In this document: positions 607-57,232 of the stretch, one piece after another
Position numbering within the stretch: the first letter of the stretch is position 1
Layout of the letters: each line of letters begins with the position of its first letter
Assembly: GCF_000186865.1 (NCBI RefSeq)
Contig: NW_008705562.1
Coordinates: 1,157,192-1,221,191 of the forward strand
Origin: Aureococcus anophagefferens
Lineage: Eukaryota; Sar; Pelagophyceae; Pelagomonadales; Pelagomonadaceae
Direction of reading: 5' to 3'
Length of the DNA: 64,000 bases
Notes under the pieces: generated by a model
What the model saw: only the letters and a program-made list of their open reading frames with translations
Told to the model about the DNA's origin: nothing
Database searches by the model: none
Made by a program: the position numbers and the translations under genes

Positions 607-650
<44 letters not shown>

Positions 651-3574: not shown

Positions 3575-4100
3575 GGCGGGGTCAAGCGGCGACTCGTCGC
3601 TCCTCAAGCTCCAAAGCCTGCTCTTCGAGCCTGTGGAGCCTCTGTGGCAATCGATCCAATCGCTAAACGAGCATAGCTCTCACGGGGTGTAGCCCAGGCG
3701 CAAAAGTGGCATCGGCAGTCTCGTCGGTTACGGGCTGGCTCCAGGGGCCTGCGTGGATTGGTGGCGCGCTCGCGCCGCGCGCCGCGAGCGGGCGCGAGCA
3801 TCTCCAGCCCGCGACCGCGAGCGAGCCAGCATCGTCCGAACTTTGTTCTTCGACTGCGACCGAACTAGGCCCGACGATTGGAAGAGCCCCACGCTCTGAG
3901 TATCAGAGGCAGGATAAGCCTCGGGACCTACGAGTGCGCGCCGCGCGGCCGAGGCCGATATTGACGGCAACAAGCTCTTTCGTCACCTCGCTGCCTCTGT
4001 TTCGACAGCCGATGAGCTGCGGCGGACCGGCCGAAAGCTAAGCGTTTAGGACCCCCCCCGCGCGCCCATAAACAGACCACACCCCAGAAACACGGCGACG
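3575..4100. promoter_or_regulatory. Divergent intergenic region
   Basis: This 526-bp stretch separates the starts of two divergent genes and presumably holds both promoters. I see no convincing ORF, tRNA, inverted repeat or introner-like sequence in it. The part nearest the rightward gene is less GC-rich than the flanking coding sequence. Confidence 0.35.
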
Positions 4101-4958: not shown

Positions 4959-5061
4959 AGCGCGCTAAGCGTCCTGTTTGACCGCGCGCCTCGGGCCGAG
5001 GCCGCGGGCGGCGCGTCTCGGAGGCGCGACCGCCCGGTCCCCTCGGGCCGCGGGCGGCGCC

Positions 5062-24900: not shown

Positions 24901-27900
24901 CCTGTGGAACATGATCTCCGACTTCCACACGAACCTGCACGAGTGGCTCCACGGCACGTTCCTCGATCTCGACGGCGCCAAGATCCAGCGCGAGGTCGAG
25001 ATCTGGTGGAAGCAGTCCTACAAGCTCAAGGGCCAGCTGGAAGAGACGACGCCCGGCGCCGCGGACTGCGCGGGCAAGTTGCGCGAGGAGACGTCCAAGT
25101 TCCGGGAGAACCTGCCGCTCATCCAGGCCCTGGCGTCGCCGGCGCTCAAGGAGCGCCACTGGTCCAACCTGTCGGACAAGATCGGCCAGAAGATCACGCC
25201 GTACGACGACCACGGCGTCGAGCTCACGCTGCACTCGCTCCTCGAGATGAACGTCGGCTCCTACATCGAGGAGATCCAGGAGGTCTGCGTCGCCGCCGAG
25301 AAGGAGTACGGTTTAGAACGAGGGTTGCAGGCCATGAAGGACGAGTGGAGTTTGGTGCAGTTCGACGTGAAGGCGTACAAGGAGACGGGCACGTCCATCG
25401 TCGGCGGCATCGACGAGATCATCGCTTTGCTCGACGACCATTTGGTAAAAACCCAGACCATGTGCGGGTCCATGTTCATCAAGGCCATCGAGGAGGACGC
25501 CAAGGCCTGGGAGAGCCAGCTCAAGTACGCGCAGGCGTTGATCGACGAGTGGATCGCGTGCCAGCGGGTCTGGATGTACCTCGAGCCCATCTTCGGCTCC
25601 GAGGACATCATGCGCCAGCTGCCCACGGAGGCGCGGCGCTTCAACGACGTCGACAAGCTCTGGCGCGCGACGATGAAGGCCACGGAGGAGGACCCCGTCT
25701 TCATCGCGCAGGCGGACCCCGCGAAGAAGCTCAAGCGCAAGTTCATCGAGGCCAACGAGAAGCTCGACAAGATCCAGAAGGGGCTGTCGGACTACCTCGA
25801 GATGAAGCGCCTCTTCTTCCCGCGCTTCTTCTTCCTCGCGGACGAGCAGATGCTGGAAATTCTGTCGCAGACCAAGGAGCCGCGCGCGGTGCAGCCCCAC
25901 CTCGGCAAGGCCTTCGAGGGCCTGAACCAGGTCAAATTCGAGAAGGATTTGAAGATCACGCAGATGATCTCCGGCGAGGGCGAGCGCGTGGACCTCAACT
26001 CGCCCGTGGATCCCAGGGCAGGACAAGAGAGCGAAATTCCAAACTTCAAAGCCTCATATCTCGGCCGTTTTCCACTCGTTTTGGCTGATTTTTGGACGAG
26101 CGATCATCTCTTGGAACGGTCTCGAAGCGTAGATGCTTTTTCCGGAACGCGCGCGCGCGGAACACTCACGTTGAAGCGACGTTGAATCACCCTTGTGCTG
26201 CCCAGGTGGATCCGGAGTCGACGGCGAACAAGGGCAACGTCGAGCGCTGGCTGCTGGAGCTGGAGAACCTCCAGTGGGAGAGCGTGCGCCGCCAGGTCGA
26301 GCTCAGCCTCGAGGAGTACCCGACCATGGAGCGCACGGCCTGGACGCTCAACTGGCCCGCGCAGGCCGTCATCGCGACCAGCGCGATCTTCTGGACGTCC
26401 GACGTCAACAAGACCATCGAGACGGGCGGCTACGCGGCGCTCAACGAGTACGTCCTGGAGCTGAACAAGGGCCTCACGGCCATCGTCATGCTCGTGCGCG
26501 GCCAGCTCAGCAAGCTCCAGCGGAAGACGCTCTCCGCGCTCGTCGTCATGGACGTCCACTCGCGCGACACGTGCGTGTCCATGGCCACGGCCCAGGTCGA
26601 CAAGGTCAGCGACTTCAACTGGCAGAGCCAGCTGCGCTACTACTGGGAGCCGTCCTGGAAGGACGGCCAGGCCGTCAAGAAGGGCCAGAAGACGGCCGTC
26701 GCGCGCATCGTCAACGCGCGGTGCCTCTACGGCTACGAGTACCTGGGCAACTCCATGCGCCTCGTCATCACGCCGCTCACGGACCGCTGCTACCGCACGA
26801 TGATCTCGGCCATCGACCTGCTCTACGGCGGCGCGCCCGAGGGGCCCGCGGGCACGGGCAAGACGGAGACGGTCAAGGACCTGTCCAAGGCCATGGCCAT
26901 CCAGTGCGTCGTCTTCAACTGCTCGGATGGGTTGGACTACAAGGCCATGGCCAAGTTCTTCAAGGGTCTGGCGGGCTGCGGCTCCTGGTGCTGCTTCGAC
27001 GAGTTCAACCGCATCAACGTCGAGGTGCTCTCCGTCATCGCGCAGCAGATCCTGACGATCAACAAGGGCAAGGCCGCGGGCGTCGAGAAGTTCCAGTTCG
27101 AGGGCACGTTCATGAAGCTGAACCCGAACGCGAACCCCTTCATCACGATGAACCCGGGCTACGCGGGCCGCGCGGAGCTCCCGGACAACCTGAAGGCGCT
27201 CTTCCGGCCCTGCGCGATGATGGTCCCGGACTACGCGCTCATCGGCGAGATCCGCCTCTATTCTTTTGGCTTCGAGGACGCGCGGCGCAACGCGCAGAAG
27301 CTCGTGCGGACCCTCCAGCTGTGCTCGGAGCAGCTGTCGTCCCAGAAGCACTACGACTACGGCATGCGCGCGGTCAACTCCATCCTCGTCGCCGCGGGCA
27401 ATCTACGCTTAAAGGTCGGCGACGACCCGGCCTGGGACGAGTCGAAGATCGTGCTGCGGTCCGTCATGGACGTGAACCTGCCCAAGTTCACCGTCGAGGA
27501 CCTGCCGCTGTTCCGCGGCATCACGTCGGACCTGTTCCCGGGCGTGGAGCTGCCCACGGCGGACCACGGCGCGCTCATCCCGACGATCGACGAGATCTGC
27601 TGGAGCGGCGCCGTCGTCGCGCCGGGCCGCGAGTACAAGCTCGAGCCGCTGGGCTCGTTCACGCTCAAGATCGTCCAGCTCTACGAGATGGTGCTCGTGC
27701 GCCACGGCGTCATGATCGTCGGCCAGACGCTGTCGGGCAAGACGTCGGCGATCCACACGCTCGCGTCGGCGATGACGAAGTGCGCGGAGCGCGGCGAGCC
27801 CTTCGAGAAGGTGAACATCCACACGATGAATCCCAAGTCCATCAAGAGCGGCCAGCTCTACGGCAACTTCGACGAGAACACGCACGAGTGGAGCGACGGC

Positions 27901-30900: not shown

Positions 30901-33900
30901 TCGCTGTCCAAGGGCGACATCGTCGAGATCAAGGCCATGAAGAAGCCGCCGGACGCCGTGAAGCTCGTCATGGAGGCCGTGTGCCTCATGATGGCCGTCA
31001 AGCCCGACAAGATCAAGGACCCCAACGGCGGCAACAAGAAGATCGACGACTACTGGGGCCCGGCCCAGAAGAACCTCCTCGGCGACCCGCGGTTCCTCCA
31101 GCACCTCATGGAGTACGACCGCGACAACATGGCGCCCGCGATGGTCGAGAAGGTCATCACCTACACGACCAAGGAGCAGTTCCAGGTCGACGTCGTCAAG
31201 AAGGCGTCCATCGCCGCCGCGGGCCTCTGCCGCTGGGTCAGCGCCATGATGATCTACGACAAGGTCGCCAAGGACGTCGGCCCGAAGAAGAAGGCGCTCA
31301 AGGAGGCCGAGCAGTCGCTGAAGTCGGCCAAGGAGGCGCTGGAGGAGAAGGAGGCGACGCTCGCCGAGGTCCAGAAGAAGCTCCAGACGCTCCAGGACCA
31401 GCTCGACGCCGCGAACAAGAAGAAGGGCGACCTGCAGACGCAGGTCACGGACGGGGCAGCACAAGAGAGCGACATTCCCAACTTCAAAGGCTCATATCTC
31501 GGCCGGTTTCCACTCGTTTCGGCTGATTTTTGGACGAGCGATCATCTCTCGGAACGGTCTCGAAGCGTGGATGTTTTCCTCGTGACGCGCGCGCGCGGCA
31601 CACTCACGTTGAAGCGACGTTGCATCACCCTTGTGCTGCCCAGGTCACGGACTGCGCGACGAAGCTCGAGCGCGCGGAGCAGCTCATCAAGGGCCTCGGC
31701 GGCGAGAAGGTGCGCTGGAACGAGCTGTCCGAGGAGCTCGCGGGCAAGTACGAGAACGTCACGGGCGACATCCTGCTGTCGAGCGGCGTCATCGCGTACC
31801 TCGGCGCGTTCGTCGTCCAGTACCGCGACGACGCGCTGAGCCAGTGGAAGCTCCTGCTCGACAAGTTCAAGATCCCCTTCACGGACGGCTTCACGCTGCG
31901 GTCGACGCTCGGCGACGAGGTCGCGATCCGGTCCTGGGTCATCAACAAGCTGCCGAACGACGAGTTCTCCATCGAGAACGCGATCATGCTCGAGCGGTCC
32001 AACCGGTGGCCCCTCATGATCGACCCCCAGGGCCAGGCGAACAAGTGGGTCAAGAAGACCTACGCGGAGAATTTGAAGGTCGTCAAGCTGAACCAGGCGA
32101 CCTTCGCGCGGACCATCGAGAACGCGATCCCGTTCGGGAACCCCGTGCTCGTCGAGAACGTCGGCGAGGTCCTGGACCCCGTGCTCGAGCCCGTGCTCCT
32201 CAAGCAGATCATCAAGCAGGGCGGCGTCAACTCGCTGCGCTTCGGCGACAGCACCATCGAGTACGACGAGCGCTTCCGCATGTTCATCACCACGAAGATG
32301 CGGAACCCGCACTACCCGCCCGAGCTCTGCGTCAAGGTGAACCTGCTCAACTTCATGGCGACGACGGAGGGCCTGGAGGACCAGATGCTCGGCCTCGCCG
32401 TCGCCTGCGAGGAGGCGGAGCTCGAGGCGCAGCGCGAGCAATTGGTCATGGAGGACGCGGAGAACAAGCGGCAGCTCAAGGAGATCGAGGACAAGATCCT
32501 CTATCTGCTCAAGACCGCCGAGGGCAACATCCTCGACGACGAGAACCTCATCGATACGCTCAAGGAGTCGAAGATCAAATCGAAGAAGATCGAGGAGAAG
32601 GTCCGCGACGCCGCGCGGACGTCGGAGATCATCGCGAAGACGCGCCGCGGCTACAAGCCGCTCGCGTTCCACGCGTCGCAGCTCTTCTTCTGCATCGCGG
32701 ACCTGTCGATCATCGACCCCATGTACCAGTACTCCATGGAGTGGTACCAGGCCCTGTTCCGCGACGCCATGGGCAAGGCCGCGTTCTCGACGGATCTCGA
32801 GGAGCGGCTCGCGTCGCTCAAGGACACGTTCACGTACATTCTGTACCAGAACGTGTGCCGGTCCCTCTTCGAGAAGGACAAGCTCCTCTTCTCCTTTTTG
32901 CTGACGGTGAAGATCATGTCGGGCCAGAGCAAGCTCGACCCGACGCACCTGCGCTTCTTCCTCGCGGGGAACACGTCCATGGAGCGCGAGCGGTCCATCC
33001 CGGAGACGGACTGGCTCGCGGACAAGTCCTGGGGCGACGTGCTCGCCATCGGCAAGCTCGAGGGCTTCGAGGGCTTCGTGGACAAGTTCGTCGACAATTT
33101 GGACATGTGGAAGACGGTCTACGAGTCGAAGCAGCCCATGGAGGACCTCGTGCTCCTCGTCGGCGACTCGCGGCACCTCGTCGACGAGGACGGCGGCGAG
33201 AAGCCCGCGGAGGAGGGCGAGGAGGCCCGCGAGGCCGACGGCCTGTCGGCCTTCCAGCAGCTCTGCGCTTTGCGCGCCATCCGGCCCGACGCCGTCGTGC
33301 CCCAGGTCCAGTCCTTCGTGCGCGAGGAGATGGGCGCGCGGTTCATCGAGGTGCCGCAGTTCGATCTGAACGGCTGCTTCGCGGACTCGCGGTGCAACAC
33401 GCCCCTGCTCTTCGTGTTGACGCCCGGCGCGGACCCCATGAGCGCGTTGTACAAGCTCGCGGAGGAGAAGGGCTTCATGGGCAAGCGGCTCCACGCGATC
33501 TCGCTCGGCCAGGGCCAGGGCGACATCGCGTACGCGGCCATCTCGGAAGCGCAGGACAAGGGCACCTGGGTCTGCCTCCAGAACTGCCACCTCTGCATCT
33601 CCTGGATGCCCACGCTCGAGCGGCTCTGCGAGGAGCTGAGCCCGGACCGCATCAACGACCAGTTCCGGCTCTGGCTCACGTCCGAGCCGTCGACGGCGTT
33701 CCCCGCGTACATTCTGCAGAACGGCATCAAGATGACCATCGAGCCGCCCAAGGGCATGCGCGCGAACCTGATCGGCTCCTACACGACGCTCATCACGACG
33801 GACTTCGTCGAGGGCGTCAAGCGGAGCGCGGAGTTCAAGAAGCTGCTCTTCGGCCTGTGCTTCTTCCACGCGGTCGTCCGCGAGCGCCGCAAGTTCGGGC

Positions 33901-40421: not shown

Positions 40422-40557
40422 GAAGTCGGTTTTCGTGACGTTGGACTAGTTATTGAAGGGGACGCGCGCTCTCTCTGGACGCGTCCGATGTTGAATGGTG
40501 CTTGCAGGCGTGTTGCTGAGATTCTCGATGGCTGCTCTGCGACTGCGCTGCGAGACG

Positions 40558-41457
40558 ATGCGTGCGCGCACTGTTTCAGCTCTTTTGCTGCTGTGCACAG
40601 CCCAATGCTGGCAACCAGCGCCGCGACGCCGCAAGTGCTGGCAACCAGCGCCGCGATGCAGTAGCAGCGTCGCGACCGCTTGCGGCGCGACGCGGCGCGA
40701 CGTCGGCGCCGCGGCGGTCGGCGCCGCGGCGGTCGGCGCCGCGCTGGCGCCGGCGGTTGCGCGCGCCGCGCCGGCGACGACGAAGGTGCTTCTCGCCGGC
40801 GAGCGGCTCGGCCTCGAGCTCGAGGACGCCGGCGGCCGCGTGCGCGTGCGGCGCGTGCGGGAGGGCACCGAGGCCTACGACAAGGGCGTGACGCCCCTCG
40901 CGTACGTCGTCGCCATCGACGGCCGACCGGTTCCCGCCGGAGCGACGGCCGCCGACGTCGGCGAAGCTCTGCGGTCCGCGCCGCGGCCCGTCGAGCTCGC
41001 GCTCGACATCGACTCCGCGTACGCGGGCCTGGATCGCGCGTCCGCGCTCGAGCGCATGGCGCAGGCGCAGGGCAACCCGACCGCGCGGCTGCAGATCGTC
41101 GGCGTGTTTCCCAGCGACGTGTCTCCCTGCATGCGGTCGCGATCCTCCGACGTGGTCGAGGTCGACTACGTCGGCAGCGTCGCCGGCGTCGTCTTCGACT
41201 CGCGGCGCCGGTTCGCCGCGATGCTCGGGAGCAAGGAGCTTCCCGCGGGCCTGGAGCTCGGCCTCTTCGAGATGTGCATCGGCGAGCGGCGGCTCCTCCG
41301 CGTGCCGCCGGCGCTGGGCTTTGGCACTCGCGGCTCCAAGCTCTACGGCGTCCCGCCCGACGCGACGCTCGACTACGACGTCACGCTGCGCGGCATCAAC
41401 CTCCAGTACGACCCCAGGGTGCGGCGCGAGGACCTCGACTTCGAGCAGCGGTACTAA
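40558..41457 (+). CDS. FKBP-type peptidyl-prolyl isomerase with PDZ-like domain, thylakoid lumen
   Basis: 299 residues from the Met of MRARTVSALLLLCTAQC, a signal peptide; an in-frame Met lies 21 codons upstream. A basic transit region follows, then a twin-Arg leader (ATRRDVGAAAVGAAAVGAA, ending ARA), which points to Tat import into the thylakoid lumen. A PDZ-like segment (LAGERLGLELEDAGGRV, YVVAIDGRPV) precedes the FKBP domain: VVEVDYVGSVAGVVFDS, LPAGLELGLFEMCIGERRLL, VPPALGFGTRGSKLYGVPPD, LDYDVTLRGI. FKBP catalytic residues are partly divergent, so activity is uncertain. In the leader the phrase CWQPAPRR-K-CWQPAPRC comes from a DNA tandem duplication. Confidence 0.85.
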   Translation: MRARTVSALLLLCTAQCWQPAPRRRKCWQPAPRCSSSVATACGATRRDVGAAAVGAAAVGAALAPAVARAAPATTKVLLAGERLGLELEDAGGRVRVRRVREGTEAYDKGVTPLAYVVAIDGRPVPAGATAADVGEALRSAPRPVELALDIDSAYAGLDRASALERMAQAQGNPTARLQIVGVFPSDVSPCMRSRSSDVVEVDYVGSVAGVVFDSRRRFAAMLGSKELPAGLELGLFEMCIGERRLLRVPPALGFGTRGSKLYGVPPDATLDYDVTLRGINLQYDPRVRREDLDFEQRY

Positions 41458-41478
41458 GGTCGCTTTGGTGTTTTTTTA

Positions 41479-41496
41479 CATCCAAAATCAGCTCAG
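41479..41496 (+). repeat. Left terminal inverted repeat of the transposon
   Basis: CATCCAAAATCAGCTCAG, preceded by TTTA. It matches 17 of 18 bases with the inverted right end. Confidence 0.85.
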
Positions 41497-41835
41497 CCAG
41501 GGCCCTCCCCGCCGCTTAGACCTTAAGGCACGTCGCTGACGCCGCCCGTCGCGCGGTTGGTACGCGGGGGTCCCCCGGTGAGTATAAGAACGCGGCCGGC
41601 GCCTTAAAGTACCGCCGAACTCGCACGTCGCGCCGCGGTCGCGCGGCCCGTCGGGCGCGTTTCGCGCGCGCGTGTCGGATATCTTGGAGGTTCGCACGAA
41701 TCACCACCGGCCCTTCGCCGACTGCCTTCCTGCCGCGAGCTCTCCGGGTTTCGGGTACTGCCTGCGCTGAGCCCTCGTGAACCAAGGAGAACCAAGGGCT
41801 CGAAGTTTCGTTGATAACTGCACAAAGCAGCCACG

Positions 41836-44800
41836 ATGCACTCGGCGGAGAGCATCTCTGGAGGTCCTTCTGGGCTGCTGGGGCGGCGCGCGCAGCGCAT
41901 GCACAAAGGGCGCCACATCTTCTGTCGCGCGGCCTCCATGGCGCGCATCAGCGGCCGCGAGCGCGCATCATTGGTGCGGCGGGTCGGCGCGGCGGTGGAG
42001 CGCCACGCCCCGAAGATCATGAAAATGTCGATGCTCGTCGGCGCGATGGCCTGCCTCGCGGGGACGCGCTCGTCGTCGTGCATGCCGCGGCCCGTGGACC
42101 TCGACGAGACGCTGGAGCCGACCTTCACGGACGGCGCGCGCAAGTACTGGCACCTGCGGTTCACATGTCCGTGCAGCGAGAAGACGGTGACCGTCCGGAA
42201 ATACCTCCGGAAGCTGTCCGACGGCGACGACGTGGAGAAGGAGAAGGAGGCGGCGCTGGAGCGGCTCTGGGCGGGGCTCATCGATGAGCACGGAGAACAC
42301 CTGGGCCTCGGGGTCGTCGGCGGCGACGGCGCGATGGACGAGGACGCGGCGCCCGAGGAGGCGGGGGTCGTCTGCCAGCCGTGCTCCCCGCCGAGCTCAC
42401 CCGGGGCGAAGCGAGGGCGTGTTGCAGCGCAGCACCCGACGCCACAGTCGATGCGAGACGCACGAGAAGCCCCTGCGGCGGAGCCCGAACCGGCGCCGGA
42501 GCCCGAGCCGGCGCCGGAGCCCGACGACGGACCCGAGCCGCCTCTGCCGCCGGCGCCCCCGGCCCCACGGCGCTCGACACGCCCGCATCATGCTCCTGTC
42601 GACACCTACCAACCCCCTGTTCCCCGTGACCGGACGGCGTTCGCTGCCGCTCTACGTCGCCAGTACGACTCGACGCCGCGGCAGCCAGCAGCAGCCCGCG
42701 GGCCCGTCGTTTCGAGCGACCGCATCGACGAGGGCGTCGGCTCCAGCGACTCCAGCGACGAGGGCTGCGCGGGCTGCGCCAAGTGCGTGACGAAGGACGC
42801 GCTGCTCCGCGAGGCCGACATGGAGATTCAGAGCCTCCGCGCGAAGTTGTCGACGCCTGGGGCCGCGTGGGCCAAGACCGTCGAGGCGCTCCCGAACCGC
42901 ACGCAGGGCATGGCGAAGAAGGGTTTGGCGCTCATGGCGCGCCTCGAGCCGACGAGCACGCCGCGCGCGAACGGCGGACCCGACGGTAGCGGATCCGACG
43001 ACGACTCCAGCGACGATCCGGAGCCCCCCCGGCCGCGGCGCCGGGTCACAGCCGCTCGTGTCGACGAGCCATCGGCGGGGCCGGCGACAGAGGCGAAGGC
43101 CCGTGACGTGAATCCTGTGCTCGCGGCCCTCTTCGTGCACGGCGGAGGCGACCAGAGCCGGACCGCGGCGATCCTCCAGGCCGTCGTCGCGCGAGCAGGG
43201 AAGCTGCTGCGACTGGACTTGAAGGAGATCAAGGCCCTACGCGCCATGGGCCGGGCGATCAAGGGCTACTTCTCGCTCGCGGCCCTTCCGAACGGCGGGA
43301 CGCGTCGGAAGTATGCCCAGCAGAAGGTGGACGCGGTGATGGAGGCTGTAACGCCGGCGGATGGCGCTGCCAAGAACTTGCTCCGGGGCATCTCGCGGGT
43401 CTGCTGCGGCGACAACGTGAGCCACAGCGTCATCGGTCGCTTCTCGAACGCGGCGGATCGACGGAAGCTACAAGACGACGCGGGCAAGCTCGCACGCCAC
43501 CGCATGCGGGCTCTGCGCTCTGATCTCGTCGACCTCGCCTGTGCTCGTGAGTATTGGCACCAGAACGACGACGTGCGACTCGACACTTTCGCGGGGAGGT
43601 GCACCAAGAAGGTGAAGATCGTCACGGTCCAGGTCGACTCCGACGGGCGGAGGACGCTCGTCGTGAAGGAGGAGCACCACCAGCGCCACACGAAGCACGC
43701 GGGCGATTTGGAGATCTACCAGGCCTTCCTGAAGTCGGCGGGCTACGCCTCTCACCTCGCCGCCCATCCCAGCCACAAGATCTCCTTCACGCTCTTCAAG
43801 CGGGCCAAGTGCCCGTGCATCGCTGTGTGAAATCAAATCTTCAACCCGACTTCAGCACCTCCGCTGCGCTTCGAGAACTCGATGAGAGCAATCGATCCGT
43901 CCAAAAATCAGCCGAATCGACTTCGATTTGACCGAGCTAGAGAATTTCAAAGTTTGGTCGGGACGTCCCAAACCAGTCGTTGATTTGCACGTGTACAGGT
44001 GCATCGGCGAGCCGCACCAGCGCGAGTGCGCCGACGAGATCAAGACCAGCATGAGGGAACGACTGCTCGCTCTGAACCGCCTGCGCCTCTCGGTCAAAGA
44101 ACGGCAAGCGACGTGCCAGGGCCCAGTCTGCCGTGCACGGCGTGCAGCCGTCGACGCACGTTCTGCGGCGCCCGAGGCCTCGTACCTCCAGGCAGAGCAG
44201 ACCGCCGCCTACAAATTCAGCAAGATCCACGAACGATCGAATCTGTCCGCGGGCATGTTCTCAAGCTGCATGCTCTGCCCGGCAATACGCTGTGAAGATC
44301 TCGAGCTGACGACCGACGATGACGAGCGTGTGTTGATGCACAGGAAGGAGTGCGCCTACGGTGATTGCGATGAATGTGGCGTCGACCAGCGCTTTTTTCG
44401 TTGCCCCTGCGAGGACACTGACGTCGAGGTGAAGCTCCGCGAGTACCGGCTCCAGCCCCGGACGGTGAAAGGCGAAGACGACGAGGGCAACAGTATCAGC
44501 TCCACCATGGCCGTCAAGGAGCTCACGGAGGTCATGGTCACGGGCAGTGAGCTCCTCACGAAAATTGAAGCCGCGGCAACAGAGTATTTCACGCACTGCT
44601 GGAATTGCCGATGGGCCAACACGGCTCGGCTGAACGACATGCATAAGTTCACCGATACCGAGCTATTCATTCAGACCGATTTCGCTGCGCAGATCTCCAA
44701 CGCTGCCCAGGACAACCTCTGCTGCACACACAGGAACCATACGAATCTCGACGTGTTCGTCGTAGCATCGGATCCACGACTCGTCGACGTGACGGTGAAG

Positions 44801-46232
44801 CATGCCGACGGGTCCTCTTCCTTCGTCAAGAAACGCATCACAGACAACCACGCGTGGAAATTCTACGCCGGTGCCTCGGGCAAGGGCAAAGATAACGACT
44901 ACTTCTTCCATCACGCCGCTCTGACCCATCTGGTGGATTTCTACGTGGCGAAACGAGTCAAAGACAACAAGCCGCCTTTGACCCGGGTCATTCTCTGGAC
45001 CGACGGATGCCCCGGCCAATATATGTGCAAAGAGAACTTCGTGAAGGTCGCCGCCTTTTGGTCGAAAAAGGGCATCGAGCTGACGCATCGATTTGCCAGT
45101 GCCCGCGTCCCCCGAAGATGGCCCGAGCCTGCGAGACGATGGCCCCATAGGCGGCTACGAGTGATTTCAAAGGTGTGCATGACACTATAGGCAAGGAGGA
45201 CCGCCGCTGGATCAATGCGAACGCGCGGCGCGACGTCATCAGCGTCCCCCAGCCCTACGACCTCTTCACAGCGGTCCGCGATGGTCGGCCGAAGCCGAGC
45301 ATGGACTGGAACGCCTCACCTACGATTCTGGCGAAGAAGTGCGACAGACGGCGTCCAAATCCGCGCAGATCGACGCGAAGACGTCCAAATCGCGTAGGTC
45401 GACGCTCTCCTTGGACAAGTACTTCTACCGGTTCATCACGTGGACCCAGGACGACCCCATCGGAGTCGACGACGACGACGTGTTCTTCGCGGACAAGTCT
45501 GCCAAATGGAGCGCCTCGCCCGTCGAAGGCTGCAAGTCTGATCGAGAGTACCGGTCTGGTTCGTCTCACGCTGTCGACGACCTGCGGCGCCGCGCCCAGC
45601 CCTGCTCGTGCTCCAAGTGCCGCGTGAAGGACTACGACAACTGCCGCTACAAGGCGTGGACCGCGGCCCCCGAGATGCGCCAGAGCGACGGCTGGACCCG
45701 CACGACCATCATCCTGAAGCCGCCCTCCGGCGATGACCGCTCGAGCGCGCGCGTCATCGCCCAGGGCCTGGCGGAGAAGGACGCTCGTCTCGCTGCCCTC
45801 GCTCCGAAGATCCGCAAGGGCGATGTGGTCGCCTTGGGCATCTCTCAGAGCGAACGTGACGCCCAGGGCGTCGACTTCTACCTCGCCAAGGTCGTCGTGC
45901 CACCGGCGCGCGCGGACAACCAACGTCGGGTCAACGGCTCGGGGCGCGACGGCTGGAACATCAAGAAGGGCGAGTTCTGCTTGACCGTGCGCTGGTTCGA
46001 CCTGAAGCCGTGCGGCTACTACGAGGACTACGGGTCCCAGGACGAGCAGCTCCTCGAGATGGTCATCGCGGTCGGCGACGGCGCCGCGCTCGTGCTCGAG
46101 CCCGCCCCTCGGAAGGGCAGGGCGCGTGGGGCCCCGGCCCAGTTCCAGCTCGCCAAGGCGTCCGAAGCGGCCATCCACAACGAGAACTTGGACAAGTACG
46201 TCGACCGGGCCGCGGCGGGCTCATCTGCCTGA
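41836..46232 (+). CDS. Putative transposase, unassigned DDE-like family (at least three exons)
   Basis: Exon 1 is 41836-43814. Exon 2 is 43999-45098, after a family-A introner. A likely 74-nt intron (45099-45172) leads to a third part that switches frame once near 45,340 (small intron or frameshift) and stops at 46232. The N-terminal part has a CPC motif (YWHLRFTCPC), a long acidic Pro/Glu-rich linker, and KHAGDLEIYQAFLKSAG. A second CPC block (QRFFRCPCEDTDVEVKLREY) follows in exon 2. The core reads FIQTDFAAQ, then CCTHRNHTN, then FFHHAALTHLVDFYV, then LWTDGCPGQYMCKENF, then HRFASVHDTIGKEDRRW. The Asp residues in TDF and TDG, with a later HD-GK motif, resemble a DDE-type catalytic core seen in uncharacterised eukaryotic transposases. 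The C-terminal part (KGDVVALGIS, DFYLAKVVVP) resembles an SH3-like barrel. Confidence 0.68.
43823..43998 (+). mobile_element. Introner element, family A, inside the transposase gene
   Basis: The 176-bp element lies between perfect duplicates GTGCATCG (43815-43822 and 43999-44006). The left end CTGTGTGAAATCAA and the right end ...TTGATTTGCACGTGTACAG are inverted repeats with decay at the right. The intron 43815-43998 uses GT from the duplicate and AG from the element; exons join in phase 2 (KCP to CIGEP). The internal sequence nearly matches the element at 15432. Confidence 0.94.
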
Positions 46233-46440
46233 GAATCGGCGCCGAAACGCGCGCGCCGCGCGACGCCGCGGTCGACGCGCGGACGCCTCGCCGACCGCAG
46301 CACGTTCCACGTGGTTTATCGCACGGACCCGCCTTTGCCCACGCCGTTTATGGTCCTAATGACGCCTCTTTCCCCCGTGGCGCGGGCCGCTACTCGGCGG
46401 TCCGTGCGCGCTGGGGCCTATGTGTCCGGCCGTGTCCCCA

Positions 46441-46458
46441 CTGATCTGATTTTGGATG
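46441..46458 (-). repeat. Right terminal inverted repeat of the transposon
   Basis: The inverted complement of the left end with one mismatch, followed by TTTA at 46459-46462. Confidence 0.85.
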
Positions 46459-46726
46459 TTTAGATTCGTCGAGGCGCCGCGGGCAGGCTCGCCGGAGGCG
46501 TCGAGCCTCCCAGGGCGCGCGCGCCCCGCCAGTTTGCGAGGCCTCGAGCACATCTCGAGGTCGAGCAAATCAAAGGGCCAGGCGTGGCACAACAGTTTCG
46601 CCCCGCGCGCCCACGCCCCGACGCGCCCGCACCGCACGACCGGGCCCACCGCGACAGCCCCCCCGGGCATTTCAAGAGCTCGCGCCCCCGACGTTTCACG
46701 CGCTCGCCGATAAAAACGTTCCAGAC
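46459..46726. promoter_or_regulatory. Region between transposon and receptor-like gene
   Basis: This 268-bp stretch starts at the transposon's right duplicate. It is the upstream region of the gene at 46727. GATAAAAAC lies about 20 bp before that ATG and is a weak TATA-like sequence. Nothing else is recognised. Confidence 0.3.
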
Positions 46727-49700
46727 ATGCGCCTCGCCGCCCTCGCCGCCCTCGGGGCCCTCGCCGCCGGCGACGACGCCCCCGCGGAGTCGTTCTGCGC
46801 CCTCGCGGCCTTCGACGGGTGCTGGGGCAACTACCGGACGCTCGGCGGCGCCGGCATCTTCGCGGAGGCCACCGCTCAATTCTACGCGTCGCCCGCGCTC
46901 GCGGACGTCGACGGCGACGGCGACCTCGACATGGTCGCCGGCGACTACACAGGCTTCGTGACCTACTTCCGCAACATTGGCACGCCGACGGCGCCGTTCT
47001 TCGAGGCCGCGGCCGCGGAGGACGACCCCTTCGTGCTCGTCTTCGAAGCCTCGACCGTGTCCGCGCCGGCGTTCGCGGACCTCGACGGCGACGCGGACGC
47101 GGACCTCGTCGTCGGCAACTTCGCCGGCACCTTCGCCTACCACGAGAACGCGGGCGGAAACTTCGTCGAGCGCGAGGGCCACGCGGTCGCGAACGTCACC
47201 GTCGATGTTTATAGCCACGCGACGTTCGGCGACCTCGACGGCGACCTCGACCTCGACCTCCTCTGCGGCGACTCGTCGACGAGCCTCAAATACTACGTCA
47301 ACGTCGGCGACGCCCGGACGCCGGCCTTCGCGCCCGCGGTCGACGACCCCTTCGCCGAGGTCTACGTTTCCTCCCGGTACGGCGTGCCCGCGCTCGCGGA
47401 CGCGGACGGCGACGGCGACCTGGACCTCGTCGTCGGCGACCGGGCCGGCGACGTCCAGCTCCTGATCAACGTCGGCTCGGCGGCCGCGCCCGTCTTCGCG
47501 CCCGCGCTGACGTGGCAGGCGGACGCGGCCGCCGCGGCCGCGGGCGACAACGTCTTCGCGTCGGTCACCGTTGGCGACCTCGACGGCGACGCCTACGTCG
47601 ACGTCGTCGCGGGCGTGGGCTCCGGCGTGCTGAAGGCCTTCCTGAGCCGCACCTTCGCCGACCCCGTGCCGTTCGCGGCCGTCGAGAGCGTCGCCGACCC
47701 CGTGCTCGCGCTCGAAGTATTGGGCCCCAATGAGAATTGGGCCGCGCCGGCGCTCGGCGACTGGGACGGCGACGGCGACTTGGACATGGTCGTCGGAGCA
47801 TTCGAAGCCCTCGTCTACGTCGAGAACGTGGGCGCCGCGGCCGCGCCGGCGTTCGAGGTCCTCGAACGTGCCGCGCGGGAGTACGAGGCGCGACCTAACA
47901 GCACGTTCGCGGACCTCGCGTTCTTCGGCAACGAGCTGAAGCCCGCGCTCGGCGATCTGGACGGCGACGGCGACTTGGATCTCGTGGTCGGCGAGCTCAC
48001 GGGCGAGCTGACGTATTTGCGCAACGACGGCGGCCTCCTCGCGGAGCCCGTCCTGCTCGCGACTCCGGCGTCGCACGGCCGCCGCGCGGCGCCGGCGCTC
48101 GGCGACGTCGACGGCGACGGCGACCTGGACCTGGTCGTCGGCGACGAGGACGGCTGGGTCTACTATTACGTCAACGTCGGCGACGCGACGAACGCGGCCT
48201 TCGCCGAGGACGAGGACACGTTCTGGTCCGTCTGGTCCACGGCCATGGCGACGCCGGCGCTCGCGGACGTGGACGGCGACGGCGATCTCGACGTGATCCT
48301 CGGCGAGTCCTTCGGCGACCGGAACCTGGCGGACAAACTGCTCTACTTCGAGAACACGGGCGACGTTTCCGCGCCGGAATTCCTCGGCGAGGCGGCCGCG
48401 AGCCCCTTCGCGGCCCTGGAGATCCGGGCGAAGGGCGGCGCGCCTCGCCCGGCGCCGGCGGTCGGCGACCTCGACGGCGACGGCGACGCGGACGTCGTCT
48501 TCGGCGTCTACGACGGCGCGTTGAGCCTGCTCGTCGCGGGCTACTGCAACGCGCCCGGGCCCTGCCGCAAGGCGGGCCTCTGCGCGACGAGCGCGGCCGT
48601 CTTCTCCCAGGCCAAGTGCGAGTGCGTCGTCGGCTTCGTCGGGAGCCAGTGCGAGGCCTGCCAGCCGGGCTACTTCGGCCCGGCGTGCGACATCTGCCCG
48701 GAGGGCGGCGACGAGGACCGGGCGAAGCCGCGCATCACGGACACGTGCGGCGTCAAGGGCTCCGGCCGGAGCCGCGGCACCTGCGACGACACGGCGACGG
48801 GCTCGGGCGCCTGCGAATGCGCCGCGCCCTTTTACGGGACGAGCTGCGATCAGGGCGCGTGCCCGGCGGGCACCGTCGAGAACGCCGCGAGCGCGGGCGT
48901 CTACTACGCGGCCACGTGCGACGCGTGCCCGCCGGGCACGTACAGCGAGGAAAACGCGGCGACGTGCACGGCCTGCGACGCGGGCCGCTACAGCGACGCG
49001 GGCGCCGCGGCCTGCTCCTTCGCGTCCGCGGGATCCTTCGTTTCATCGACGGGCGCGTCCGCGGAGACGCCGTGCGCGCCGGGGACGTACTCGGCCGCGG
49101 GCGAGGACGCGTGCACGGCCTGCGACGCGGGCTTCTACGCGCCCGCGGGGAGCGCGGCCTGCGCGGCCTGCGCGCCGGGCACGTATTCGGGCGCGGGCCG
49201 CGGCGCGTGCGACGCCTGCCCGCCGCGGTCCTACGCGGCGGAGAGCGGCGCGGCGAGCTGCGCCGTCGCCGACGCGGGGTTCTTCGTCGCGGACGCGGGC
49301 GCGTCGGCCCAGGCGACGTGCCCGCCGGGCGCGTACTCGGGCTCGGGCGCGGCGAGCTGCACGCCCTGCGAGGCCGGCCGCTACGCGGCGCGCGGCGGCG
49401 AGTCGACGTGCGCGCTCTCGGACGCGGGCTACTTCGTCGCCGACGCCGGCGCCGACGCGCAGGCGCCGTGCCCCCAGGGCGCCTTCTCGGGCGGCGGCGA
49501 CGTCGCCTGCGAGGAGTGCGCGCCGGGCCGCTTCGCCGGCGACGAGGCGTCGACGGCCTGCGCGCTCGCGAGCGCCGGGTCCTTCGTCTCGAAGCGGGGC
49601 GCGACGCGGGAGGACGCGTGCGCCGCGGGCAGGTTCTCGGGCTCCGCGGCGACGGCCTGCGCCGACTGCGCGCCTGGGTCCTACGCGTCGAAGGCCGGCG

Positions 49701-52700
49701 CCGCGGCGTGCGCGCTCGCCGACGCGGGCTACGTCGTCGCGAAGCCGGGCGCCTCGAAGCAGGTCAAGTGCCCGCCGGGCGCGCGGAGCGGCGCGGCGGC
49801 CGCGCGCTGCGAGCCCTGCGAGCCCGGCGCCTTCGCGGCGGACGCGGGCGCGACGCGGTGCGCGCTCGCCGAGGCGGGCCACTTCGTCGCCGACGCCGGC
49901 GCGGCGGCGCAGGAGGCCTGCCCGCCGGGGTCGTTCTCGGGCGCGAACGCGGCCGCGTGCGAGCCCTGCGCGCCGGGCCGCCACGCGGAGGGCGCCGCGA
50001 CGGCGTCGTGCGCCATCGCGCTGCCGGGCACGTTCGCGGCGTCGCCCGGCGCGACGGCGGCGGGCCGCTGCCCCGCGGGCCGCTACAGCGGCGCGGGCGC
50101 GCTCTACTGCGAGCTCTGCGCCGAGGGGTCGACGAGCGACGCGGGCGCGTCGACGTGCGCGCCCGTCGACGCCGGCTCGCAGACCGCGGCGCTGTCGACG
50201 GTCGACGTCCGCGTCGAGGGCGCGGTGGTGCTTGTGGATGGTGTGCTTGACGATAGCACACGGGCGGCGTTCGCGGCGGCGCTCGACGCGAGCCTCGGCG
50301 ACACGTTCAGCGTCGTCGCGGCCGACGTCGCGGCCGCGGGCCGGCGGCGCCTCGGCGACGGCGCGGACGTGGCCTTCGCGGCGACGACGGTCGCGTCGCT
50401 CGTGCCCGGCGAGTCCTCCGACGCGGCCCTGCGCCGCGCGCGCAACAGCTTCATTATTGCACTACGGAGCGCCGCGACGACGGGGCGGCTCCAGGACGCG
50501 CTCGGCGACGTCGCGATCGACGCGGAGCGGACCGCGGCGGCCGCGGACGCCGCGACGGCGTCGCTCGCGTCCGAGCCGACGCGCGCCGCGGGCGCGCTCG
50601 TCGTCGAGTGCCCCGCGGGGACCTACTCGACGTCCGGCGCCGTCGCGTGCGTGCCCTGCGCGCCGGGCACGTACGCGGACGCGGCCGCGATGACGAGCTG
50701 CAAGCTCGCGGCGCCCGGCTCGTACGTCGCCGCGGCGGGCGCGGCGGCCGCGACGCCCTGCGCCGCGGGCACCTACAGCGGCTCCGCGGCGACGGCCTGC
50801 GCGCCCTGCCCCGAGGGGTCCTTCGTCAACGAGACGGGGTCGCCGAACTGCCTCCGGTGCCCCGCGCCGACGACGACGCTCGTCCCCGGCCGCGCGTACT
50901 GCGACGCGTGCCGCGAGGGCTACTACTGGGACGGCCGCTACTTCCGCGACCACGGCGCCGCGGCCCTGGCGGCGACGCGGACGCAGTGCGCGGCGTGCTG
51001 CGGCCGGTGCGGCGACGCGTGCGTCGGCGCGGACGAGACCGACTGCGCGGACTGCGCCGCGCCCGGCGCGACGCTCGAGACGCTGGACCTGAAGAAGAAC
51101 TTCTGGCGCGCCTCCGCGGCGGCCGACGCCGTCTACCGCTGCCACCAGCTCGGCGCCTGCAAGGGCGGCGCGAACAGCTCGTGCGCGCGCGGCCACAAGG
51201 GCGTGCTCTGCGGGACCTGCGAGGCGGGCCACTACCACGACTCGTCGCTCCAGGCCTGCCGCGACTGCGGCCGCAAGTTCAACGTGAGCGGCGAGAACAT
51301 CATCGGCTCCGTCCTCGTCTTCGCCGTCGTCTGCCTCCTCTGCGGCGCGCTCCTCAAGCGCTACGGCTGGACGCAGATCCGCGCGTATTTCGTCGAGTTC
51401 TTCAAGGAGCTCGACGTGCTCCACGTCTACTCCAACGCGCGCAAGCGGCAGCACAAGACGAAGATCTCGAAGAAGCGGCGGCGCGAGAAGCGCCGGGAGC
51501 TCGAGGAGGAGCGGTCGCGCGCCGCCGCCGACGGGAGCGGCTCCGGCTCCGGCTCCGACTCCGACGGCGGCGACGGCCTCGGCGAGCTCCGGACGTCCGG
51601 GTCGAAGAGCTCGCTCGGCGACGGCCTCGCGACGCGGACGACGGCCGGCGGCGGCGCCGAGCAGGAGGAGGACGCGACGAGCGGCAGCGTCATGACGAAG
51701 CTGAAGATCATCATCTCGACGTACCAGATCGCGACGTCGCTGCCGTGGACGCTGCCCCAGGTCGACTTCCCCAAGGTCTTCGAGGACGTGCTCAAGCTCG
51801 GCTCGATCGTCAACCTGAGCCTGATTTCGTTCGCGAAGAGCGAGTGCTTCGGCGACATCACGTACTTTGACAAGCTCCTCTTCACGACGCTCGTGCCCTT
51901 CGTCTTCGTCGTCCTCATCGGCGTCGTCTGCGCGCTGCGCATGGCCTACGTGCCCGCGGACCAGCGCACGCGCGTGCTCTACAAGGGGGGCTACTGGATC
52001 ATGTTCACGCTCTACGTCTTCGTGCCCGGCACGTCGAGCTACTGCTTCCGCTACTTCTCGTGCGCGTCCTACGAGGGCTACGGCGGGTCCCGGGCGTACC
52101 ACGTGCTCCGCGCGGACCCCAGCATCGGCTGCGGGAGCCCGGCCTACGCCGCCTGGCTGCCCTACGTGCTCTGCGCGATGCTCGTCTACCCCGTGGGCAT
52201 CCCCGCGACGTTCGCGGCGCTGCTCTGGCGGCTCCGGGACCGGCTCGACCCGGAGGTCCGCGCGAAGCTCGTGGGCACGAACTCGCGGCGCGTGAGCCTC
52301 GGCGCGGCGACGGAGCTCAAGGAGCGGTCCGCCTTCGGCAATCTGGCGAACCCGGAGGACCAGGAGTACCTCGACGCGGCGCTCGAGCGCCACCGCGAGG
52401 CGCTCCGCCAGCTCCAGAAGCTCGAGCAGCGCGCGAACGACCCCGCGCTCCGGCCCATCCGCTTCCTCTACGAGGAGTTCGAGCCGCGGTGCTGCATGTT
52501 CATCGTCTACGAGATCCTGCGCCGCGTCTTCCTCACGGGCTGCCTCGTCATGTTCCTGCCGGGGTCCATCTCCCAGATCGCCATCGGGTTGCTGGGCACG
52601 ATGATCTCCTACCGCATCTACAACTACTACCGGCCCTACATCGAGGAGGACGACAACATCATCTCGGAAGTCGCGCAGACGCAGCTCGTCATCATCTTCT

Positions 52701-53056
52701 TCTACGCGATGATGGCCTACGCGACGGAGAACCTCGAGGAGAAGGACGGCGTCTTCTCCGGCGAGATCTTCGGCTTCCTGCTCGTCGTCATCCTCGTCTC
52801 CGTGCTCTTCGTCTCCGTCTGGCTCGTCATCGTCTCGCACTTCGGCCACAAGCAGATCTCCATCTTCTTCTCCACGGCCAAGGACCGCGCGGAGCGCCGC
52901 CGGCGCGTCCTCGAGATGAGCAAGTCGTTCCGCAGGAGCGCCAGCGCCATCTTCTCCCGCTCCGACTCGGCCGCGCCCGCGGACGCCGCCGCGGGCGACG
53001 TCGACGCGGGCCCCGTGGAGGCGGCGGACGTGCCGCTGGACGAGGGCGGGGTGTAA
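46727..53056 (+). CDS. Large surface receptor-like membrane protein: FG-GAP repeats, cysteine-rich repeats, multi-pass C-terminus
   Basis: 2109 residues, single exon, signal peptide MRLAALAALGALAAG. Residues about 50-600 hold roughly ten FG-GAP/VCBS-type repeats with calcium-binding DVDGDGDLDMVAGDY-like loops, probably a beta-propeller. An EGF-like block near 605-690 (CNAPGPCRKAGLC, CECVVGFVGSQCEACQPGYF) follows, then about ten GCC2/GCC3 ephrin-receptor-like Cys repeats (CPPGTYSEENAATCTACDAG and variants) to about 1140, a spacer, and more repeats to about 1400. From about 1524 there are several membrane spans (IIGSVLVFAVVCLLCGALL, LVPFVFVVLIGVVCAL, FGFLLVVILVSVLFVSVWLV) around a large charged cytoplasmic loop. 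Similar architectures occur in algal and oomycete surface proteins of unknown function. Adhesion or sensing is inferred. Confidence 0.85.
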   Translation: MRLAALAALGALAAGDDAPAESFCALAAFDGCWGNYRTLGGAGIFAEATAQFYASPALADVDGDGDLDMVAGDYTGFVTYFRNIGTPTAPFFEAAAAEDDPFVLVFEASTVSAPAFADLDGDADADLVVGNFAGTFAYHENAGGNFVEREGHAVANVTVDVYSHATFGDLDGDLDLDLLCGDSSTSLKYYVNVGDARTPAFAPAVDDPFAEVYVSSRYGVPALADADGDGDLDLVVGDRAGDVQLLINVGSAAAPVFAPALTWQADAAAAAAGDNVFASVTVGDLDGDAYVDVVAGVGSGVLKAFLSRTFADPVPFAAVESVADPVLALEVLGPNENWAAPALGDWDGDGDLDMVVGAFEALVYVENVGAAAAPAFEVLERAAREYEARPNSTFADLAFFGNELKPALGDLDGDGDLDLVVGELTGELTYLRNDGGLLAEPVLLATPASHGRRAAPALGDVDGDGDLDLVVGDEDGWVYYYVNVGDATNAAFAEDEDTFWSVWSTAMATPALADVDGDGDLDVILGESFGDRNLADKLLYFENTGDVSAPEFLGEAAASPFAALEIRAKGGAPRPAPAVGDLDGDGDADVVFGVYDGALSLLVAGYCNAPGPCRKAGLCATSAAVFSQAKCECVVGFVGSQCEACQPGYFGPACDICPEGGDEDRAKPRITDTCGVKGSGRSRGTCDDTATGSGACECAAPFYGTSCDQGACPAGTVENAASAGVYYAATCDACPPGTYSEENAATCTACDAGRYSDAGAAACSFASAGSFVSSTGASAETPCAPGTYSAAGEDACTACDAGFYAPAGSAACAACAPGTYSGAGRGACDACPPRSYAAESGAASCAVADAGFFVADAGASAQATCPPGAYSGSGAASCTPCEAGRYAARGGESTCALSDAGYFVADAGADAQAPCPQGAFSGGGDVACEECAPGRFAGDEASTACALASAGSFVSKRGATREDACAAGRFSGSAATACADCAPGSYASKAGAAACALADAGYVVAKPGASKQVKCPPGARSGAAAARCEPCEPGAFAADAGATRCALAEAGHFVADAGAAAQEACPPGSFSGANAAACEPCAPGRHAEGAATASCAIALPGTFAASPGATAAGRCPAGRYSGAGALYCELCAEGSTSDAGASTCAPVDAGSQTAALSTVDVRVEGAVVLVDGVLDDSTRAAFAAALDASLGDTFSVVAADVAAAGRRRLGDGADVAFAATTVASLVPGESSDAALRRARNSFIIALRSAATTGRLQDALGDVAIDAERTAAAADAATASLASEPTRAAGALVVECPAGTYSTSGAVACVPCAPGTYADAAAMTSCKLAAPGSYVAAAGAAAATPCAAGTYSGSAATACAPCPEGSFVNETGSPNCLRCPAPTTTLVPGRAYCDACREGYYWDGRYFRDHGAAALAATRTQCAACCGRCGDACVGADETDCADCAAPGATLETLDLKKNFWRASAAADAVYRCHQLGACKGGANSSCARGHKGVLCGTCEAGHYHDSSLQACRDCGRKFNVSGENIIGSVLVFAVVCLLCGALLKRYGWTQIRAYFVEFFKELDVLHVYSNARKRQHKTKISKKRRREKRRELEEERSRAAADGSGSGSGSDSDGGDGLGELRTSGSKSSLGDGLATRTTAGGGAEQEEDATSGSVMTKLKIIISTYQIATSLPWTLPQVDFPKVFEDVLKLGSIVNLSLISFAKSECFGDITYFDKLLFTTLVPFVFVVLIGVVCALRMAYVPADQRTRVLYKGGYWIMFTLYVFVPGTSSYCFRYFSCASYEGYGGSRAYHVLRADPSIGCGSPAYAAWLPYVLCAMLVYPVGIPATFAALLWRLRDRLDPEVRAKLVGTNSRRVSLGAATELKERSAFGNLANPEDQEYLDAALERHREALRQLQKLEQRANDPALRPIRFLYEEFEPRCCMFIVYEILRRVFLTGCLVMFLPGSISQIAIGLLGTMISYRIYNYYRPYIEEDDNIISEVAQTQLVIIFFYAMMAYATENLEEKDGVFSGEIFGFLLVVILVSVLFVSVWLVIVSHFGHKQISIFFSTAKDRAERRRRVLEMSKSFRRSASAIFSRSDSAAPADAAAGDVDAGPVEAADVPLDEGGV

Positions 53057-55934: not shown

Positions 55935-57232
55935 TTAGACGGGCTCCTCCTCGGGCAGGAACATGGCGACCTTTTCCATCTCCGTGAGGGCCTCGCTCGC
56001 GAGCTGGGGCGGCGGCCGCGTCGGCCGCGCCGGCGACGCGTAGGAGCCGCGGGGCCCCGCCTTCTTCGGGGACGTGGAGAAGTCGGGCGCGCCCTCGCGG
56101 AGGCTCGCGAAGAAGTTCGCGTCGACGCCGGTGCACTTGACGTTGGCCACGGAGTCGGGCCGCAGGATCCAGGACCCGCGCGCGCGCTCGCCGGCGTACT
56201 CCTCGTGCTTCATGGGGCTCGCGTTCGTCATGTCGAGCTTGGACCTACCAAGTGCGACGGGGTCGGATTTCTTCACATCTTCAGGCGAAATTCACGCGAA
56301 AAAACACTCCTGTCGCTCGACGCTGGCTTGGACGTGTGGTGCGCGAAGGCGACGGGCTCGTCGTTCCGGTCCGCGCGGTCCCTAATGCGGCGCCGGCTCT
56401 GCACGGTCTCGCTGGCCCAGCGGCCCGCGGCGCCCGGAGTGCGGCTCCCGCTGTCGGAGCGCGTCGCCGCGTCCTCGAAGTCGAGCGCGGCGCGCGGCGA
56501 CGCGGCGGCGGCGTCCCCGGCGGCGTCCGCGGCGGCGTCCCCGGCGGCGTCCCCGGCGGCCGGCGGCGGCGGCGGCCGCGCCGCGCCGTCGCGCGACGAC
56601 GCCGCGATGGTCTCCGCGAGGCGCCGGGCGACGGCGTCCTGGTGGACCTCGAGCTCGGCGATGCGCACGCGCGAGAGCCGCGCCTCGGCGCCTGTGTGGA
56701 AATCAACCAGTGGAACGCCCTGTCCAGCAAAACTTCAAACCTCTCTATCTCGATCAAATCGAAGTCGATTCGGCTGATTTTTGGACGAATCGATTGCTCT
56801 CGTCGAGTTCTCGAAGCACAGCCAAAGATCTTGCGTCGAAACGGTCGCATACGCGTACATTGAAGTCGGCTTGAATATTTGATTTCCACACAGCTCGGCG
56901 CGGCACTCGTCGCGCTCGAGCCGCAGCGCGTCGCGGTCCGACTCGAGCCGCGACACCGTCGCCGCGAGGTCCGCGATGGCCGCGCCGCTCTCGACCTTGA
57001 CGCGCCGCAACAGGGCGCGCAGCGTCTCGTTCTCGCGCTGGAAGCGCTGCGCCGTCTCGATGAGCTCGCCGAGCTCGCCGGAGGCCGCGGCCTCCTCGAC
57101 GCGGCCGCCGTGCAGGCGCCGCTGGCGCGCCGTCTCCCGGATGGCCAACCGCACGCCGTCGGCCTGGCCCGTGCACGAGTCCTTGTAGGACTTGGCGAAG
57201 CGCCGCGACCCCGTCGGCGGCGCGAAGCTCAT
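55935..57232 (-). CDS. Coiled-coil protein with two transposon-derived introns
   Basis: Three exons on the minus strand: 57232-56902, 56691-56334 and 56244-55935, 332 residues. It starts MSFAPPTGSRRFAKSYKDS. Exon 1 and the start of exon 2 form a continuous coiled coil (AQRFQRENETLRALLRRVKV, LESDRDALRLERDECRAEAR, LSRVRIAELEVHQDAVARRL). A low-complexity Ala/Pro tract and a C-terminal region (KHEEYAGERARGSWILRPDS, NFFASLREGAPDF) follow. Splicing was chosen because removal of both duplicated-target introns leaves one frame from start to stop. Function is unknown; a cytoskeletal or flagellar role is possible. The start lies 180 bp from the divergent gene at 57412. Confidence 0.78.
56245..56325 (-). 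mobile_element. Short insert with 8-bp target duplication forming an 89-nt intron
   Basis: The 81-bp insert lies between perfect duplicates GCTTGGAC (56237-56244 and 56326-56333; GTCCAAGC in the coding sense). The intron 56245-56333 starts GT in the duplicate and ends AG in the insert, as introners do, and joins exons as HHTS to KLDM. The insert lacks the termini of families A and B. Only a subterminal inverted match (GAGCGACAGG against GTGCGACGGG) is visible. It may be a third, short introner type or a deleted one. Confidence 0.72.
56692..56893 (-). mobile_element. Introner element, family A, with GC donor
   Basis: The 202-bp element has perfect 15-bp inverted termini (CTGTGTGGAAATCAA on the coding strand) between perfect duplicates CTCGGCGC (56684-56691 and 56894-56901; GCGCCGAG in the coding sense). 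The intron 56692-56901 therefore starts with GC, taken from the duplicate, and ends AG in the element. Splicing restores RDECRAEAR in frame. No GT alternative gives an exact repair. Confidence 0.93.

Follow-up and report, generated by a model that had tools for sequence, protein, structure and literature searches.

An autonomous, probably Sola-like DNA transposon with a nested introner in the pelagophyte Aureococcus anophagefferens

The stretch of DNA analysed here (hereafter the window) comprises 64,000 nucleotides of Aureococcus anophagefferens contig NW_008705562.1 (NCBI RefSeq assembly GCF_000186865.1, positions 1,157,192 to 1,221,191 of the forward strand); the contig is labelled C2 below, and positions are given in window coordinates. 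Between 41479 and 46458 the window harbours a transposon of 4980 bp, which consists of one four-exon gene enclosed by 18-bp inverted ends. The data presented below provide good grounds for regarding it as an autonomous cut-and-paste transposon of the pelagophyte A. anophagefferens, or of a very close organism, which, in the features tested, resembles the Sola group of transposons with three catalytic aspartates (DDD) in its way of working and is most likely a member of it.

The features of the element are as follows.

41475..41478, no strand: left copy of the target site duplication (TSD), TTTA, read from the sequence
41479..41496, plus strand: left terminal inverted repeat (TIR), 18 bp, CATCCAAAATCAGCTCAG, by pattern search
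41836..43814, plus strand: exon 1, with a putative ATG start at 41836; gene models P0001, P0004 and P0018 share this methionine
43815..43998, plus strand: intron 1, an introner, beginning with 8 bases, GTGCATCG, that form the left copy of its TSD and would supply the 5' splice site
43999..44006, plus strand: right copy of the introner TSD, GTGCATCG, at the start of exon 2, by flank comparison
43999..45106, plus strand: exon 2, with cysteine-rich CPC blocks and predicted catalytic Asp 1 and 2
44678..44680, plus strand: D887 codon, in TDF, the first predicted catalytic aspartate, by translation and profile alignment
45002..45004, plus strand: D995 codon, in TDGCPGQY, the second predicted catalytic aspartate, by translation and profile alignment
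45107..45150, plus strand: putative intron 2, 44 bp, GT-AG, placed to retain the (A)TSDFKGVHD of relatives, exact donor uncertain
45151..45338, plus strand: exon 3, which encodes the last of the three predicted catalytic residues, by translation
45181..45183, plus strand: D1040 codon, in GVHDTIG, the third predicted catalytic aspartate, by translation and profile alignment
45339..45397, plus strand: putative intron 3, 59 bp, GT-AG; P0001 splices the same junction
45398..46232, plus strand: exon 4, with a CSCSKC block, a C-terminal region that is SH3-like by eye, and the stop at 46230-46232
46441..46458, minus strand: right TIR, 18 bp, CATCCAAAATCAGATCAG, by pattern search
46459..46462, no strand: right copy of the TSD, TTTA, read from the sequence

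Ends, gene and copies of the element

The first-pass annotation of this DNA had proposed inverted repeats of 18 bp, and these were borne out: CATCCAAAATCAGCTCAG and CATCCAAAATCAGATCAG are identical at 17 of 18 positions as an inverted repeat, the termini of the element being CA..TG. A search of the full window with the end pattern, allowing up to 3 mismatches, returned these two places only (0.01 expected), and two matches were obtained in none of 100 shuffles. The single spliced gene of about 4.4 kb which had been placed between the ends was found as well, its four exons spanning 41836-46232 (4397 bp) and forming, when joined, an open frame of 1369 aa with no internal stop. All the protein features described at that stage are present, namely TDF, TDGCPGQY, HD-GK (as HDTIGK), two CPC blocks and a C-terminus (GDVVALG...FYLAKV) whose likeness to SH3 was judged by eye.

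The splicing proposed for the gene is deduced from the reading frame and from homologues. The junctions of introns 1 and 3 are identical in gene model P0001, and the predicted proteins of relatives are continuous across the site of intron 1 (P0002, P0006, P0012, P0014, P0031), across the sites of both introns 2 and 3 (P0016, P0028, P0029) and, in P0031 and P0033 also, across that of intron 2. Within the gene model, the intron 2 donor is placed with the least certainty; an earlier placement of this intron at 45099-45172 was dropped, since homologues keep the conserved TSDFKG segment. The first homologue search and alignment A1 were made with the earlier, 1359-aa version of the protein.

A search of the genome (49.05 Mb; contigs labelled C1, C2 and so on, loci L014 and so on) with the ends, allowing up to 2 mismatches, yielded 20 places, compared with one for the reversed control pattern. 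Four of these ends belong to two complete elements (the window copy and one on C4), three to one-ended copies on C1, C10 and C28, and eight to four short elements, the remaining five being lone matches. According to BLAST, the C4 copy is 99.9% identical to the window element over its full length, hence the transposon has recently been active, and the partial copies retain element bases 1-3364 (C1), 1175-4980 (C10) and 1-681 (C28). The flanks of these copies show no mutual similarity at E <= 1e-5. The 5'-truncated C10 copy (C10:432554-433192, minus strand, L068) is situated inside an open frame of 6288 aa, its transposase part being in frame with the giant upstream frame.

In all six both-ended elements, two long and four short, the TSD measures exactly 4 bp, which is the longest repeat between the flanks; from the base composition of the window, the chance of such a match is about 0.007 per element. 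The six sequences all differ (TTTA, CGGC, CGCG, TCTT, TATG, AGGA). The TTTA duplication reported by the first-pass annotation is thus present on both sides of the window copy, but TTTA as a fixed target was rejected, the 4 bp varying among copies.

The short non-autonomous relatives (L014-L017, on contigs C1, C5, C9 and C56, 1073-1199 bp, found by end search and BLAST) carry the ends CAACCAAAATTAGATCAG and CAACCAAAATCTGATCAG, and their first 36 bp share 81-83% identity with the right end of the long element (E 8.6e-6 to 4.1e-4), the rest of which gave no further convincing match to them. Three copies are nearly identical, and L017 has an extra stretch of somewhat more than 100 bp. None of the searches of the genome turned up a distinct autonomous partner having the CAACC ends. 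This family of about 1.1 kb is probably moved by the enzyme of the long element or by a sister one. One of its members, L016, splits an 11-bp tandem repeat, and once the element and one TATG are deleted, the 11-bp repeat runs on in register across the junction, which is a precise empty-site argument for insertion.

The first-pass annotation had also suggested looking for an empty site in another strain. In gene models of other A. anophagefferens assemblies, pieces of the transposase are joined to different host genes, and the host parts of P0025 and P0024 correspond to C12:580525-580854 and C15:382894-384339, respectively. Transposase matches on C12 or C15 are absent from the genome search results, in which the rows for these contigs touch only the introner part of the query; the examined 4 kb of C12 (L078) and C15 loci L072 and L073 contain no match to the element, and C12 locus L070 has a single 55-bp match to the element, within the introner part. 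This suggests that the presence of the element differs between strains, as judged solely from automatic gene models.

The gene could, in principle, be immobile or domesticated, with repeats flanking it by chance, and the finding of only two full-length copies, of which the C4 one has its frame broken by a single base, would be in line with this. However, ends and duplications are common to copies at unrelated sites, the non-autonomous family has like ends, and other assemblies' gene models fuse element pieces to host genes whose C12 and C15 counterparts are free of the element in the DNA examined here, which renders such an explanation most improbable. The element is a genuine autonomous DNA transposon which encodes its own transposase between the ends described, as supported by its other copies, by the non-autonomous relatives sharing its TSD length and by the restored empty site. 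It is located between a gene at 40495-41457, the C-terminus of which we take to be FKBP-like, and a very long frame at 46445-53056, presumably made up of FG-GAP-like and cysteine-rich repeats.

Homologues and predicted fold of the transposase

A homologue search yielded 6 proteins at E <= 0.001, and a wider one with a 502-aa query 30 proteins at E <= 10, P0031 covering 98% at 26% identity. The three motifs of the transposase resemble those of certain animal proteins, and with a bait built from the motifs of the latter 951 proteins at E <= 1 were found among 984 candidates, 120 of them being listed (P0034-P0153). The organism is named in 12 of the 120 matches listed, all of them animals (insects, fish and a sea cucumber). 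Two alignments with overlapping membership were built from the listed animal-type proteins (A3, 30 rows; A5, 78 rows), while the window family is represented by profile A4 (9 rows, mostly partial) and by A2, which includes P0031.

Profile alignment of A4 with A3 extended over 248 columns (probability 97.2, E 3.5e-11, about 20% identity) and placed D887, D995 and D1040 opposite DFAEN, SDG and DGIGG, respectively. In a column-shuffle control the maximum was 29.2 versus 98.6 for the real alignment (188 of 200 shuffles scored), and the A2 profile gave E values of 2.5e-13 against A3 and 6.4e-13 against A5. The Glu of HDTIGKE was rejected as the third catalytic residue, P0031 having Q at this place and keeping the Asp of HD. 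In addition to the three aspartates, the animal-type family and the algal protein have in common a C-x4-C-x2-C block before the core and a strand-rich C-terminus (algal protein by eye, P0039 by model). The algal protein carries about 580 residues ahead of the aligned core region, a part which showed no Pfam match in the scan of window pieces and was not searched separately.

With Pfam, the three pieces taken from the window were without a match at E <= 1, as was the spliced core at E <= 10, and this holds for EnSpm/CACTA, including Chapaev, at the same thresholds. Comparison of the window family with Pfam, NCBIfam and PDB sequences returned nothing usable; some of these searches took from the window only the open reading frame with D887 and D995. 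The lack of a Pfam name could stem from gaps in the model collection no less than from novelty. In the animal-type family, DUF7869 was matched by 4 of 30 members at E <= 0.1 (best 3.9e-5) and, on rescanning, by 3 of 10, all below the curated cut-off; no DUF7869 match was found in this genome, which is uninformative, since 14 control genomes had none either. Among IMG/VR viral contigs there were 94 pattern matches, none of which encodes a relative by tblastn.

The structural model of the animal-type relative P0039 is of good quality; it comprises strands 371-383, 399-408, 414-421, 451-457 and 482-488, separated and followed by helices, puts D377, D457 and D498 where the active site of ribonuclease H (RNase H) is expected, and has a strand-rich C-terminal domain (631-697). 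Its core matches integrases and mariner transposases (VIA-align), and the RNase H core is common to P0039, retroviral integrase, Mos1 and IstA, at the level of the fold only. The third catalytic residue of integrases is Glu, whereas in the window family it is predicted to be Asp. The model of P0031 has its core strands and helices in the same order as that of P0039. A Foldseek search of viral models was uninformative (best E 1.9e-4, an unnamed protein, template modelling score 0.15 by query).

Comparison by hidden Markov models and structure, which the first-pass annotation had recommended, thus returned no Pfam match, and the profiles and the P0039 model point to an RNase H-fold DDD transposase, as which the enzyme may be regarded by alignment and by the model of one relative. 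Several observations weigh against this assignment. The Foldseek search of P0039 found no PDB match at E <= 0.001, the best being a herpesvirus terminase nuclease (1.4e-3). For the distant relative P0031 the model is a weak one (predicted local distance difference test score 53.1), and it is matched best by Argonaute/PIWI domains, which adopt the RNase H fold without being transposases. In the P0002 row of A2 the third Asp is replaced by T, at a point where the frame of P0002 is lost, and the predicted fold comes from models of relatives, not of the window protein.

Placement among known transposon groups

As outlined in the accessible part of one review (PMC10741241), Sola elements have a DDD transposase, 4-bp duplications, ends of 11 to 1124 bp and a size of 2-9 kb; 4-bp duplications are also given for Sola2 in an excerpt of another (PMC3627910), and Sola-1 and Sola-2 are recorded for the stramenopile Ectocarpus in the available text of a third (PMC12477816). 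The window element agrees with this description in duplication length (4 bp in 6 of 6 both-ended elements), in its TIRs and size (18 bp and 4980 bp) and, as predicted from alignment and model, in the DDD triad, the third acidic residue appearing to be Asp in the window and animal-type families alike. It differs from amoebozoan Sola2, the duplications of which are AT-rich according to the same excerpt (PMC3627910), in that the duplications of its family are not.

Other groups were compared by their descriptions in partially available sources. Kolobok is described with a TTAA-specific duplication and 5'-RR..YY-3' ends (PMC9587614), and piggyBac with a 4-bp duplication and CC..GG ends (PMC10045372), again specific for TTAA (PMC9587614); the window element has CA..TG ends, and its family six varied duplications. 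IS481EU is given TG..CA or TNT..AYA ends and duplications of about 4, 15 or 25 bp (PMC10045372), and here only 4-bp duplications and CA..TG ends were seen. For hAT, P, MuDR, Kolobok and Dada a C/DxxH motif is described between the second D and the last acidic residue (PMC9587614); none was found between D995 and D1040 in the translation read by eye. Kolobok, piggyBac, IS481EU and the C/DxxH group thus each disagree with the element in a feature examined. No paper in the literature searched, which left subscription papers and Repbase outside its scope, names this element.

The first-pass annotation had singled out the element as a candidate for an undescribed superfamily. The missing Pfam match is in keeping with that proposal, which was, however, not demonstrated, the motifs aligning with conserved aspartates of a large, mostly unannotated family and the features matching the Sola description. 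Alternatively, the algal family and the animal-type DFAEN/SDG/HGKG-DGIGG proteins may together constitute an unnamed DDD superfamily distinct from Sola, as the lack of Pfam matches for both window pieces and spliced core, the exclusively sub-threshold DUF7869 matches of the animal-type family and the absence of DUF7869 from the literature searched would allow. This seems rather doubtful, as the features agree with the printed Sola description (PMC10741241, accessible part), and a missing name means little when Repbase and Sola sequences lie outside the comparison. The element probably extends a known transposon group rather than founding a new one, and the balance tilts modestly towards its belonging to the Sola group, as judged from printed descriptions.

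The introner in the transposase gene

Intron 1 is bordered on both sides by the 8-bp GTGCATCG and displays the features of an introner, that is, many similar introns, a flanking duplication and inverted ends. Most of the scored genome matches (92 of 97) are to the intron 1 translation rather than to transposon copies. The relatives of this introner have 5' ends near CTGTGTG.AAATCAAATCTTCA (also as CTGTGTG.AAATC) and 3' ends ATTT.CACACAG, and a flanking repeat of at least 6 bp was found at 27 of 36 places examined, including that in the window: 8 bp at 12 places, 9 bp at 11, 10 bp at two, and 14 bp and 6 bp at one each. Two loci of this sample, L038 and L039, have an identical repeat and may be one sequence assembled twice. 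GY stands at the start of most of these repeats and would serve as the 5' splice site of the introner.

Introners of Aureococcus with an 8-bp duplication, as well as the linker bias of A. anophagefferens introners, have been published (PMC9860276, seen in part). Intron 1 resembles those described in that part in its 8-bp duplication, its inverted ends and a 3' splice site within the element; the Aureococcus sp. example given there carries both splice sites, whereas the 5' site of intron 1 seemingly originates from the duplication. Two further members of the same introner family were noted in the window at 15432-15630 (plus strand), where the script found no duplication, and at 56696-56893 (minus strand), along with weaker partial matches at 26076-26132, 31514-31567 and 63769-63791.

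The introner is 100% identical in all four transposon copies reaching the site (window, C4, C1 and C10), and it was therefore inserted before those copies spread. Because its ends and duplication length differ from those of the transposon, it is read as a passenger. Its position within the transposase gene, and the presence in its body of CCAAAAATCAG, which resembles the transposon end, might suggest that the transposon is the autonomous partner mobilising Aureococcus introners; such a role is scarcely credible, given that the introner ends (CTGTGTG.AAATC / ATTT.CACACAG) are different and the duplications longer, 23 of 27 being 8 or 9 bp as opposed to 4 bp for the transposon.

The movement of the Sola-like transposon itself may be pictured as follows. 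A single protein would bind the ends of the element, and its RNase H-fold domain with D887, D995 and D1040 would cut and join them; target cuts staggered by 4 bp would leave 4-bp duplications without a fixed sequence, the mode of movement being presumably cut-and-paste, and the same or a sister enzyme would move the non-autonomous family with similar ends. A more far-reaching proposal, which we put forward only tentatively and consider unlikely, is that the element represents the algal branch of an unnamed DDD superfamily, found in marine algae and many animals, missing from Pfam and marked by 4-bp TSDs and a DFA / (S/T)DG.xxQ / G-x-x-D-x-x-G signature, in which an introner became a transposase intron and is now multiplied by the transposon.

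A family barely covered by public protein models is now provided, through the Sola-like element, with ends, the length of the duplication, a probable non-autonomous partner and a complete transposase, and many nameless animal proteins are linked to a mobile element whose ends are defined. The nested introner presents the case of one transposon turned intron inside the transposase gene of another and spreading along with its host element, and it makes it possible to test directly whether genes that receive an introner are spared.
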